A program made the position numbers and the translations under genes. Shown piece by piece: positions 54,980 through 60,494 of a stretch of 64,000 nucleotides of DNA (its first letter is position 1; each line of letters starts with the position of its first letter). Source of the DNA: Bacteroidota bacterium (GTDB lineage: Bacteria; Bacteroidota; Rhodothermia; JANXDC01); the NCBI GenBank assembly GCA_025059945.1, contig JANXDC010000011.1:205856-269855 (forward strand), read 5' to 3'. Under the pieces are notes generated by a model, which saw only the letters and a list, made by a program, of their open reading frames with translations, was not told the origin of the DNA and did no database searches.

Positions 54980-57109
54980 ATGTCCGGGCAGCGCGATCAG
55001 ATGACGCCGCTTAGCGAACGCATCCTGCGCTTTCTGCGCACGTACCCCGGTCGGTTTTTTCGTGCCGGCGAGATCGCCCGCCGTCTGGGCCAGCGCACCC
55101 CGCAGGCGACACAGGAGGTGCGCCTAGTTCTGGAGGCGCTCCTGCAGGCTGGTCTCATCAAACGCATCAAAGGCAAGCGTTTCGGCTACGAGCCCGAGCG
55201 GCGCTATCTGGAGGGTATACTGCGCCTGACCCCGCAGGGCTTTGGCTTCGTCACGCCCGAGGAAGGAGCAGCAGAGGTCTTCATCTCGCCCCGGCATATG
55301 GGCACGGCCTTGGACGGAGACCGAGTGCGCGTGGCCCTGTTCGCCCACCGGGCCTCTGGGGCAAAGCACCCCGAAGGGGAGGTGGTTGAGGTGCTGGAGC
55401 GCCGCCGAAGAACCCTGGTGGGCACGGTTCGGCGTTTTCGGCGCCTGTACGTGCTGCAGCCGGATGACCGCCGGTTTCCTCACGATGTGATCCTCGCGGA
55501 GCGCGCCGGGGCTCAGGAGGGAGATAAGGTGGTGGTGGAGCTGGATCTGGAGGGCTGGACCGACCCCCGCCTCAACCCCGAGGGGCGCGTCGTGGAGGTG
55601 CTTGGCCCGGCGGGGCGATCGGACGTTGAGGTGCTGGCTGTGGCCAAGGCCTTCGAGGTCCCCTCGGTTTTTCCGGAGGACGCGCTTCAGGAGGCTGAGG
55701 CCCTGTCGGGGCGCATCGGCGCAGCGGATCTAGAGGGTCGGGAGGACTTTCGCCCCTGGATCGTCTTTACCATCGATCCGGCCGACGCGAAGGATTTCGA
55801 CGACGCCGTCGCTTTGCGGCCTCTTCCGGATGGCACCTATGAACTGGGGGTGCACGTGGCCGACGTCTCCCATTACGTGCGGCCCGGCACAGCCTTAGAC
55901 CGCGAGGCCCTACGGCGAGCCACAAGCGTTTACCTCGTGGATCGCACTCTGCCCATGCTGCCGGAGCGCCTTTCGAACGACCTTTGCAGCTTGCGGCCGG
56001 AGGAGGATCGACTGGTATACTCCGTGATCCTGAACCTCACCCCTCAGGGACGGGTTCTTCGCTACCGCATCACCAAGGGGGTCATCTGCAGCCGGGCCCG
56101 TTTCACATATGAGGAGGTCGATGCGATCCTGGAGGGGCGCCTAAAGCACCCCTTTGCGGAGATCCTGCGCCGGATGAACGAGCTGGCCAAGCGCCTGCGC
56201 GCCCGCCGCATGCGCAACGGAAGCCTGGATTTCGATCTGCCGGAGGTCAAGTTTGTGCTCGATGCGCACGGCCTACCCGTGGAGGTGATCCCCAAGGTGC
56301 GCAAAGACAGCCATAAGCTCATCGAAGAGTTCATGCTGCTGGCCAACCGCACCGTGGCCGAGCACATCGGGCGCTTGCGTCGCGGACGGCGCCCCAGGCC
56401 CTTCATCTATCGGGTGCACGATGAGCCGGATCCGCAGAAGTTGATCCAGCTAGACGCTTTCGTTCGGCATTTCGGCTATCGCCTCCAAAAGGAGGCGGAC
56501 CGGATCACGGCGCGCTCGCTGCAACGGCTGCTACGCGAAGTGGAGGGAAGCCCTGAAGAGGGGGTCATCGAGCAAGTGGTGCTGCGCTCCATGGCCAAGG
56601 CCGTATACGCCACGCGCAACATCGGACACTATGGGCTGGCCTTCCGCTACTACACGCACTTTACCTCGCCCATCCGTCGCTATCCCGACCTGATGGTGCA
56701 TCGGCTGCTGGATCGTTATAGCCGAGGCGGTTCGGATTGGGATGCGGAGGAGCTAGAGGCCATCTGCAGGCACTGTTCGCAGCGAGAGCGGGCGGCCGAC
56801 GAGGCCGAGCGGGAATCCGTTAAGCTCAAGCAGGTCGAATACATGAGCCGACGCCTCGGCCAGGTCTTCGAAGGCGTTATATCGGGCGTGACGCCCTTTG
56901 GCTTCTTCGTCGAGCTACTGGATACGCTGGCCGAGGGCTTGGTGCGTGTGCGCGACCTGCGGGATGACTATTACGTCCTGGATGAACGGCGGTACGCCCT
57001 GATCGGCCAAAGCACGGGCCGTTGTTATCGGCTGGGCGATCGGGTGCGCGTGGTGCCCATTCGGGCCGACACGGAAACGCGGCAGCTTGATTTTCAGCTG
57101 GCCGATTAA
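54980..57109 (+). CDS. rnr: ribonuclease R
   Basis: 3'-5' exoribonuclease of the RNase II/R family, 709 residues. An N-terminal winged-helix segment (residues 8-65) is followed by cold-shock domains (GILRLTPQGFGFVTPEE). The RNB domain has the catalytic aspartates in FTIDPADAKDFDDAVALR and also HVADVSHYVRPG. The RNB end YATRNIGHYGLAFRYYTHFT is followed by an S1 domain (GQVFEGVISGVTPFGFFVEL). The basic C-terminal tail of E. coli RNase R is missing. AGCGGAGG precedes the start. Its stop codon overlaps the convergent S9 stop within TTAA. Confidence 0.96.
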   Translation: MSGQRDQMTPLSERILRFLRTYPGRFFRAGEIARRLGQRTPQATQEVRLVLEALLQAGLIKRIKGKRFGYEPERRYLEGILRLTPQGFGFVTPEEGAAEVFISPRHMGTALDGDRVRVALFAHRASGAKHPEGEVVEVLERRRRTLVGTVRRFRRLYVLQPDDRRFPHDVILAERAGAQEGDKVVVELDLEGWTDPRLNPEGRVVEVLGPAGRSDVEVLAVAKAFEVPSVFPEDALQEAEALSGRIGAADLEGREDFRPWIVFTIDPADAKDFDDAVALRPLPDGTYELGVHVADVSHYVRPGTALDREALRRATSVYLVDRTLPMLPERLSNDLCSLRPEEDRLVYSVILNLTPQGRVLRYRITKGVICSRARFTYEEVDAILEGRLKHPFAEILRRMNELAKRLRARRMRNGSLDFDLPEVKFVLDAHGLPVEVIPKVRKDSHKLIEEFMLLANRTVAEHIGRLRRGRRPRPFIYRVHDEPDPQKLIQLDAFVRHFGYRLQKEADRITARSLQRLLREVEGSPEEGVIEQVVLRSMAKAVYATRNIGHYGLAFRYYTHFTSPIRRYPDLMVHRLLDRYSRGGSDWDAEELEAICRHCSQRERAADEAERESVKLKQVEYMSRRLGQVFEGVISGVTPFGFFVELLDTLAEGLVRVRDLRDDYYVLDERRYALIGQSTGRCYRLGDRVRVVPIRADTETRQLDFQLAD

Positions 57110-59814
57110 GGCTTGGCTCGCACAAGCCGAAAGCCCACGTAGGCGGCCGCAGGAGGTCTGTAGGACGCCTTGGGGTCGGCGGGCAAAACGGCCGCGCCCC
57201 CTCGCACAACGCCTTCTCCTTGGGCATCCAGGCACCATTCGGCCACGTTGCCCCCGATGTCGAATAGCAGCATCGGACCCGCACCGGGCCGCGATCCCAC
57301 CTCCAACAGCAGCGCATCCGCTCGGGGTAGCTCTTGCAGCTGGCGCTGCAGAAGCTGCACCTCATCTGGGTTCGGCGTGTATCCGGCCCAGAAGTCCAGC
57401 GTGTTCTCTTGTGCCCTTTTGTCCTGTGCGATGCGCTCTAGGGCTTCGAATTCGGCCACCGTGGGCAGGCGAACCGGCTGGCCCAGCTTTTCGGCCAGCC
57501 ACCGCGCATAAGCTTGGGCCTCCTGTAGCGAGATCCCGTTTGCCGGGTAGTTATCCGTACCGGCTGGATACGCATAGTCGGGCCGAAAGGCCCGATATTG
57601 GGCTCGCGTGATCTCAAAGCGGCTCACCCAGAAGGAGTCGGCTTTGACGAACTCCGGAACAAGCGTACCATCGGCTAGCCGTATCCCGTATAGGCCGTCT
57701 GTGCGGGCTATTTGCGCGCGTCTTAAGAGCTCCCCCAGGGGGGAGTCGGCCTTGTAGGCCGGGTTGGGTTTGTCGTATCGCCCGAATAGATACTGTGCAA
57801 ACCAGGCTAGCTCCTCCTCCATCTTGCGGCGCTGATGGGACAGGCGCACTAGGCTATGCTCCGCGCCCGGGAAAAGAACGAAGCGGACCGGGGCCTTGCC
57901 CAGCTGCTGCAGGGCGCGGTAATGCTGCCATCCTTGCTCCGTAGGCACGGCCCGGTCCTCGGTGCCGAAGCAGATAAGCGTTGGCGTTACGACCCGATCC
58001 AGCCGAAACAGGGGGGATTTTTCAAGGTAGTGCTTCAGGTTGTTCCAAGGGTTGCCCTTAAAATAAGACTCGTCGAAGCGGACGCCGAAGGAGCAGTTGC
58101 CGTAGTCGGAGATCCAGTTCACGTTGCCCGCTCCGGGTGCAGCGGCCTTAAAGAGCGTGGGATATTCCACGGTAAGCCCGATCGTGAGGATAGCCCCGTT
58201 GGACCACCCCATCACGCCCAGGCTATCCGAATGCACGAGGCCCCGTTGGATAAGGGCCTCCACGCCTCGCCGGATGTCGGGAAGCTCGTATTCGTAGTAG
58301 CGGCCCTTGATGGACTCGACGAACTCCAGCCCGTAGTTCGAAGATCCGTGGTAGTTGGGCCGTAACACGAAGGCGCCGCGTTGGGCGAGCAAGTTGGGGT
58401 AGCCGGCCCAAGATTCCCGCCAGGCGTCTAAGTCCACGGAGGCCGGCCCGCCGTGTATGAGCACGATGAGCGGGTAGCGGCGCCCCGGTCTGTAATCGTG
58501 CGGGTAATACAGGATGCCTTCGATTGTGCGGTTGCGAGACCCTCGCCAGCGGAAAACCTCGGTCTGAGCGATGCGGCGCTCCCGCAGGTGCGCGTTCAGG
58601 CGCACCAATTCCCGCACGCCCACAATGCTTTCCCCTTCTAGGCGCCCCCAAAAGTATTGCGTGGGCCGGTTGGCTCGAGAATGCGCTAGAACTATCGTGC
58701 GCCCGTCCGGACCTAGGACCACGCCGCCCAGGTGGTCCGGCGACAGGCTCGTGTCCGCGATCGAGACCCAGCGGCGCTCCCAGCCAGAGGGCGTGCGCAC
58801 GTAGTGCGCCAGACGGTTTGTGGTCCCGTTGGCCAGCTGCACCAGCACCCCCTGGGGGGTGGGCACCACGACGCCGAAGCTGCCCAGGCCCCAGTCCCAC
58901 GCCAAAGGTACCTTAAGGTGCGTTCGCGTGCTCAGGTCGAAATAATAAAGCTCCTCGATGCCCGCACCCTCCCACTGGGGATCGCTTGCGCGCGTGTCTG
59001 TGGCGTAAAATCCGCGCGCGTCCGGCGTCCACTGAAAGTTGCCCGGGTCCAGATACCGTTCGGCGAAGATCTCAATGCGTTCTCCGCTTACGAGGTCGTA
59101 CAGAAACTGGCGGGGCTGTTGGCGGGCATCGGCCGCGTAGTGGGGGCTCTGGTTGTGGGAGGTGACGATGTAACGCCCGTCTGGGGAGAGGGCGAATTCG
59201 AGGATCTGGTCCGTGTTCTCCGTCAGGCGCCGCACGTTGCGCGTTCGGATGTCGAGCTCAAAAAGTCGGACCGGCGGCCAAAACTCCGGATCTTCGACCA
59301 CTTGGGCGTCGTCCTTGCGCTCCTTAAGCTGGCGTTCGCGCAGCGTGGGCTCCTCCCGCGCCAGGAAAACGATCCGAAGCGAATCCCGCCAGGCGAAAGC
59401 GCGCACCCCTCCCTCGTGGTTGCTGATCGGCCAGGGCTCGCCCCCGTCGGGACGGATGAGCCAGATCTGGCGTCCTTCTTTGAGCTCTTCGGCTCTGCGG
59501 GCCGAGAGAAAGGCGATCCAGCGGCCATCGGGGCTAAAACGCGCCGCGGCGTCGTCGTGTCCGCCGCGCGTAAGCTGCACGCTTCCACCCTCCGGAAGGC
59601 GCGTAAGGTACAGATCGGTTACGTGTCGATCCTTTTTCGGATCCGCGTAACGCTTGGCCCAGACCACGGCTCGGCCGTCGGGTGAGATGTCAAAGCCGGT
59701 GATGCTTTCCTGTTGGATCACGTCCTCTATCGTCCACGGTTTATGGGTGCGCTGAGCCCAGCCGGCAAGCGCACTCCCCAAGCCCAGCAGCAAAGACAGA
59801 CCCACGCGGCCCAT
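57106..59814 (-). CDS. secreted S9 serine peptidase fused to an FGE/sulfatase-modifying-like domain
   Basis: A 902-residue protein with three parts. A signal peptide (about residues 1-20, ending ALAGWAQ) is followed by an eight-bladed-propeller-like N-terminal region with PD40-type repeats (ARFSPDGRWIAFLSARR and FALSPDGRYIVTSHN). Next comes the S9 alpha/beta-hydrolase peptidase. Its triad is Ser538 (VMGWSNGAILTIGL), Asp620 (FGTEDRAVP) and His653 (GAEHSLVR). The last 200 residues resemble FGE-sulfatase/C-type-lectin domains: VSRFEITRAQYRAF, VRLPTVAEFEALERIA, DIGGNVAEWCLD, VVRGGA and VGFRLVR. Start 59814 has AGGAGG eight bases upstream. The C-terminal domain lacks an obvious catalytic Cys pair, so it may be structural. 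Confidence 0.88.
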   Translation of the reverse strand: MGRVGLSLLLGLGSALAGWAQRTHKPWTIEDVIQQESITGFDISPDGRAVVWAKRYADPKKDRHVTDLYLTRLPEGGSVQLTRGGHDDAAARFSPDGRWIAFLSARRAEELKEGRQIWLIRPDGGEPWPISNHEGGVRAFAWRDSLRIVFLAREEPTLRERQLKERKDDAQVVEDPEFWPPVRLFELDIRTRNVRRLTENTDQILEFALSPDGRYIVTSHNQSPHYAADARQQPRQFLYDLVSGERIEIFAERYLDPGNFQWTPDARGFYATDTRASDPQWEGAGIEELYYFDLSTRTHLKVPLAWDWGLGSFGVVVPTPQGVLVQLANGTTNRLAHYVRTPSGWERRWVSIADTSLSPDHLGGVVLGPDGRTIVLAHSRANRPTQYFWGRLEGESIVGVRELVRLNAHLRERRIAQTEVFRWRGSRNRTIEGILYYPHDYRPGRRYPLIVLIHGGPASVDLDAWRESWAGYPNLLAQRGAFVLRPNYHGSSNYGLEFVESIKGRYYEYELPDIRRGVEALIQRGLVHSDSLGVMGWSNGAILTIGLTVEYPTLFKAAAPGAGNVNWISDYGNCSFGVRFDESYFKGNPWNNLKHYLEKSPLFRLDRVVTPTLICFGTEDRAVPTEQGWQHYRALQQLGKAPVRFVLFPGAEHSLVRLSHQRRKMEEELAWFAQYLFGRYDKPNPAYKADSPLGELLRRAQIARTDGLYGIRLADGTLVPEFVKADSFWVSRFEITRAQYRAFRPDYAYPAGTDNYPANGISLQEAQAYARWLAEKLGQPVRLPTVAEFEALERIAQDKRAQENTLDFWAGYTPNPDEVQLLQRQLQELPRADALLLEVGSRPGAGPMLLFDIGGNVAEWCLDAQGEGVVRGGAAVLPADPKASYRPPAAAYVGFRLVRAKP

Positions 59815-59827
59815 GGGGCGAACCTCC

Positions 59828-59856
59828 TTGCGAACCAAGGACTGAGCTCGTAAAGT
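59828..59856 (+). promoter_or_regulatory. promoter candidate for aat
   Basis: TTGCGA at 59828-59833 and TAAAGT at 59851-59856 are separated by 17 bases in the 77-base divergent region. The predicted start would leave a leader of about 29 bases before aat. Confidence 0.5.
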
Positions 59857-59891: not shown

Positions 59892-60494
59892 ATGGGCTTC
59901 TCCGCTGAGGTGCGCTGGCCGCTTACGCCGGAGCAGGTCCTAAAGGGGTATCGAATGGGGTTTTTCCCCATGGCCCCGGGTCGCGACAGTTCCGAAATCC
60001 ATTGGTTTAGCCCCGACCCGCGAGGCGTTTTGCCGCTGGATCGGTTCCGCATACCTCGGACGCTAGCGCGTCTATACCGACAGGGGCGCTTCGAGGTCCG
60101 CTATAACACGGCCTTTGAGGCCGTAATCCGGGCCTGCGCGGATCGAGCCGAGACATGGATTTCGGAGCGCATCATAGCGGTGTATGGGGAGTTACACCGA
60201 CAAGGTTGGGCGCACTCCGTGGAGAGCTGGAGGCAGGGACAGCTTGTGGGCGGGCTCTACGGGGTGTCGATAGGCGGGGCGTTTTTCGGCGAATCCATGT
60301 TTCATCGGGAGCGGGATGCCTCCAAGGTGGCCCTGGTGGCGCTAGTGGAGCGGTTGCGCGCGCGAGGTTTCGCCCTGCTCGATGTACAGTGGGTCACCCC
60401 ACATCTGGCTCGCTTTGGGGCCGTGGCTATCCCCCGGTCGGCGTATTTGGGTCTTCTGCGGGATGCGCTGCGCCTTCCGGTGCGCTTTGTCTAA
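59892..60494 (+). CDS. aat: leucyl/phenylalanyl-tRNA-protein transferase
   Basis: Enzyme of the N-end rule pathway that adds Leu or Phe to proteins with N-terminal Lys or Arg, 200 residues. Family motifs are VLKGYRMGFFPMAP, WFSPDPRGVLPLD, and AHSVESWRQGQLVGGLYGVS, with GGAFFGESMFHRERDASKVA following. LLDVQWVTPHLARFGA closes the fold. It is divergent from the S9-FGE gene, and an 84-base gap with its own possible promoter follows. Confidence 0.95.
   Translation: MGFSAEVRWPLTPEQVLKGYRMGFFPMAPGRDSSEIHWFSPDPRGVLPLDRFRIPRTLARLYRQGRFEVRYNTAFEAVIRACADRAETWISERIIAVYGELHRQGWAHSVESWRQGQLVGGLYGVSIGGAFFGESMFHRERDASKVALVALVERLRARGFALLDVQWVTPHLARFGAVAIPRSAYLGLLRDALRLPVRFV

Follow-up and report, generated by a model that had tools for sequence, protein, structure and literature searches.

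An uninterrupted open reading frame on the minus strand of the window, the whole 64,000-nucleotide stretch of DNA that was analysed, joins an S9 peptidase to a C-terminal domain predicted to adopt the fold of formylglycine-generating enzymes (FGE), from which the catalytic cysteine segment has been deleted. The fusion is a real, widespread and uncharacterised protein architecture and represents no new kind of system. We consider it probable that the protein is an exported S9C-like oligopeptidase whose FGE tail has been repurposed as a non-catalytic binding or docking module. The frame comprises 902 codons counted from its ATG, with an alternative TTG start possible at 59838, and has the following features.

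57106..59814, minus strand: complete S9–FGE fusion gene, 902 amino acids, stop codon counted in (profiles and full-length homologues)
59755..59814, minus strand: signal-peptide-like N-terminal segment, residues 1-20 (MGRVGLSLLLGLGSALAGWA; read from the sequence)
58540..59742, minus strand: beta-propeller domain, about residues 25-425 (PD40 match, AlphaFold strands, Foldseek to S9 structures)
57775..58539, minus strand: S9 alpha/beta-hydrolase domain, about residues 426-680 (PF00326, E 1e-42; phmmer to 8wt1)
58201..58203, minus strand: catalytic Ser538 in GWSNG, invariant
57955..57957, minus strand: catalytic Asp620, invariant
57856..57858, minus strand: catalytic His653, invariant
57748..57774, minus strand: low-confidence linker, about residues 681-689 (pLDDT <50 at 681-688)
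57109..57747, minus strand: FGE-fold domain, about residues 690-902, catalytic Cys segment deleted (PF03781, AlphaFold, Foldseek, comparison with canonical FGEs)

Pfam profiles matched PD40 at residues 80-118 (E 5e-11), PF00326 (Peptidase_S9) at residues 474-676 (E 1e-42) and PF03781 (FGE-sulfatase) at residues 723-864 (E 8e-13, 49 bits; cut-off 23.3 bits). The initial annotation had placed an S9 peptidase and an FGE-like domain in one chain, and this is correct since both profiles fall within a single reading frame; all the FGE-fold motifs it named are present, and the profile check it proposed for the C-terminal part returned FGE profiles. Residues 1-20 resemble a signal peptide in which inspection of the sequence found no lipobox cysteine. 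The homologues are hydrophobic at this N-terminus too, and the protein is apparently exported, judging from sequence, to a likely periplasmic or extracellular location.

The N-terminal part has the features of the S9 family, with a PF00326 domain bearing a Ser-Asp-His triad and a preceding beta-propeller seen by PD40, the model and Foldseek. The best matches of the full-length AlphaFold model (pLDDT 86, pTM 0.72) were S9 carboxypeptidases and acylaminoacyl peptidases, with a TM-score of 0.86-0.87 over the target and 24-26% identity for 8wt1. Both 8wt1 (S9 carboxypeptidase of Geobacillus stearothermophilus) and 5yzn (Deinococcus radiodurans S9 peptidase) share the propeller, the hydrolase and the triad with the fusion protein but end after the hydrolase, without an FGE tail. 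The Ser538-Asp620-His653 triad assigned at first shows no variation across 42 fused and 15 unfused homologues, and the peptidase would be active through these residues. Model confidence is low in loop 563-573 (an active-site loop) and in linker 681-688, for which reason the packing of the tail is unsettled.

A survey of domain architectures, as the initial annotation had advised, revealed full-length copies of the fusion in dozens of independent genomes. Another 41 homologues have this architecture; they belong to Bacteroidota, KSB1, Latescibacterota, Krumholzibacteriota, Aminicenantota and others. When GTDB representative genomes were scanned, 28 relatives of 41-84% identity were identified, almost all of them matched from end to end; PF00326 and PD40 were matched in all 28 and PF03781, at E 0.001, in 26. 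Among the relatives are MAGs whose deposited labels read Bacillota and Deferribacteres; the latter label may be wrong because the MAG groups with KSB1 in the tree. Across an even sample of the phylum, 17 of 395 genomes had a full-length match (at least 771 bits), and the next best matches scored about 230 bits and ended near residue 680. Fifteen of the nearest unfused S9 proteins, among them a paralogue (L065) encoded in the same genome as the fusion, all end within 33 residues of the matched hydrolase, near residue 682, and no intermediate between fused and unfused forms was seen. Relatives in plasmid records likewise match only as far as the hydrolase end. Within genus g15, genomes G025, G035, G326 and G341 carry the fusion and G036 has no fusion match at E 1e-100, which suggests that loss is tolerated.

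When the S9 parts of 42 fused and 15 unfused proteins were placed in a midpoint-rooted tree, a branch supported at 100/100 set all the fused proteins apart. The tree program gave a long-branch warning for three sequences (L024, L057 and L059); with these branches and the midpoint root, the tree is consistent with a single old fusion event without proving one origin. A private signature of two active-site positions marks the fused proteins: Asn539 of GWSNG is fixed in 42/42 of them and present in 1/15 unfused proteins, and Cys574 is fixed in 42/42 and found in none of the 15.

Two plus-strand genes flank the fusion gene. The one at 54980-57109, which we take by eye and without a profile to be RNase R-like, converges on it, the two stop codons overlapping by 4 bp. 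The other, at 59892-60494, is divergent from it and presumably encodes a leucyl/phenylalanyl-tRNA-protein transferase (Aat), again recognised by eye without a profile search; this pairing was seen only within the same genus. No conserved operon partner was found across phyla, and neighbours are kept only among close relatives. Aminicenantes (L010-L015, L021, L026-L028) have a stable fusion neighbourhood of tRNA nucleotidyltransferase, NAD-epimerase and LysM/SLT transglycosylase genes, which offers no lead to function.

Modelled in isolation, the tail is predicted to form the FGE fold that the initial annotation had expected (pLDDT 93.9, pTM 0.90). All 34 Foldseek matches at E ≤0.001 were FGE-superfamily structures, with TM-scores near 0.5, and comprised CarF, PvdO, ToxD, PorK, EgtB (EgtB-IV), OvoA, CalU17, a Treponema variable protein, and human FGE and its paralogue; together with the PF03781 score above cut-off, they assign the tail to the FGE-sulfatase superfamily. 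The motifs RLP, GNVAEW, GGA and GFR are also common to the tail and FGE/SUMF1 (PF03781). These enzymes carry a catalytic CxxxxC segment, whereas the tail has it deleted. Two canonical FGE-type proteins from the phylum (L060 and L064) served as the positive control; in both, this segment lies between RGG and GFR and reads RGGSFLCHKAYCESYR...GFR. About nine columns at that place are gaps in the fusion family, leaving no cysteine and no CxxxxC ahead of the GFR motif; the absence of the FGE cysteine pair had been recognised correctly from the start. At no position of the tail do more than 10 of 28 homologous sequences have a Cys or a His, and the genome contains no PF00884 sulfatase and no PF03781 domain besides the tail itself. 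An active FGE is rejected on these grounds. Eight pairs gave a measurable dN/dS ratio for the tail (NG86), 0.06-0.10 in seven of them and 0.39 in the eighth; these values are rough because several dS exceed 1. The tail is thus under purifying selection, looser than that on the hydrolase, and evolves faster than the hydrolase. With the segment and its cysteines lost, no sulfatase in the genome and purifying selection acting, the tail is not a formylglycine-generating enzyme, and it is not a relic in decay either.

In the mechanism that we propose, an exported S9C-type oligopeptidase, a relative of acylaminoacyl peptidases and S9 carboxypeptidases, would have retained an FGE fold stripped of FGE chemistry as a fixed non-catalytic module at its C-terminus, and this module would bind a peptide, a partner or another subunit. 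PorK provides a precedent for such a binding role, as its FGE-like fold without the cysteines acts as a docking hub (PorKN structure paper, PMC12421860). By this analogy it is plausible that the tail recruits the peptidase to a complex or substrate, as was suggested in the initial annotation. Counting against a binding module are the lack of a partner indicated by the neighbours, the faster evolution of the tail and the uncertain domain packing (pTM 0.72).

S9C enzymes are often multimers, and it is possible, if rather less than probable, that oligomerisation or stabilisation is the main role of the FGE domain, which would then shape or gate the way into the S9 active site and not serve to dock other molecules. 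The short linker and the lack of a conserved partner gene nearby are in keeping with such a role, and so is the joint divergence of the two domains, whose pairwise distances correlate at r = 0.93 (861 pairs). Shared ancestry alone would yield this correlation, so that the domains travelled together and contact is not implied; moreover, the model does not fix how the tail is oriented, which counts against such a role. Another reading, which we regard as doubtful, takes the fused proteins as a distinct S9 subfamily of single origin, marked by GWSNG and Cys574. Its FGE groove, now degenerate, would capture a specific peptide or protein terminus and present it to the peptidase. If this were true, the protein would be a substrate-selective processing enzyme and not a scavenging oligopeptidase.

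It is very unlikely that the tail retains a different enzyme activity and works with the peptidase, for instance by EgtB-, OvoA- or PvdO-like oxidation. The fold matches to CarF, PvdO, EgtB-IV and OvoA favour such chemistry, but it is opposed by the lack of any conserved Cys or His across the 28 homologues, including a histidine column like those that bind iron in EgtB/OvoA, by the deletion of the catalytic C-terminal segment and by the absence of a sulfatase to modify. Part of the EgtB/OvoA iron site resides in an N-terminal DinB-like domain, and the fusion protein has no such domain.

The GldK-type likeness pointed out in the initial annotation holds: in sequence, the PDB entries that match the tail best are PorK/GldK chains, which have, like it, an FGE-like fold without catalytic cysteines (PMC12421860). 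Unlike the fusion protein, PorK/GldK is a lipoprotein, is unfused to a peptidase and has the ring-building insertions InsH and InsV; the fusion protein scored 24.3 bits against the NCBIfam model TIGR03525 (GldK/PorK), for which the curated cut-off is 350. Docking of the peptidase to a type IX secretion system (T9SS) or gliding ring through a GldK/PorK-like FGE domain is judged highly improbable. Apart from the sequence matches, it is favoured by SprA (TIGR04189), which was above cut-off in all 60 genomes searched (the window genome and 59 relatives of its class), and by several Por_Secre_tail proteins encoded in the window genome. Against it, GldK (TIGR03525) and GldM (TIGR03517) were above cut-off in 0 of the same 60 genomes, and the fusion family occurs also in Aminicenantota and other phyla that, to our knowledge, lie outside the usual T9SS range. 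The ring and motor of the T9SS may be absent from these genomes or may have diverged too far for the models to recognise. That two genes were joined by a chimera or an assembly error is rejected outright, as the same junction is found in the complete sister genome KatS3mg041 (84% identity) and in dozens of other full-length homologues.

An exported peptidase with a non-catalytic binding tail is thus our preferred reading. Our literature search on FGE-sulfatase domains combined with S9 found only one survey, and no characterisation of the family. That survey (Kaushik and Sowdhamini 2014, PMC4522959) lists, in the legend of its Fig. 3, an architecture that pairs a prolyl oligopeptidase with a 'formylglycine-generating sulfatase' domain, which is the same combination; it is a catalogue entry there, and the main text is silent on function and on lost catalytic residues. 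The novelty of the architecture is therefore modest, and what is new is that the catalytic segment has been lost, that the fused proteins form a single clade and that they occur so broadly. The family adds a conserved, apparently exported peptidase to several little-studied phyla and another case, outside the T9SS, of an FGE fold kept as a module without its chemistry. In this family, it would be misleading to annotate such tails as sulfatase-modifying or non-heme-iron enzymes. The ligand of the tail, once known, would reveal what these peptidases process.
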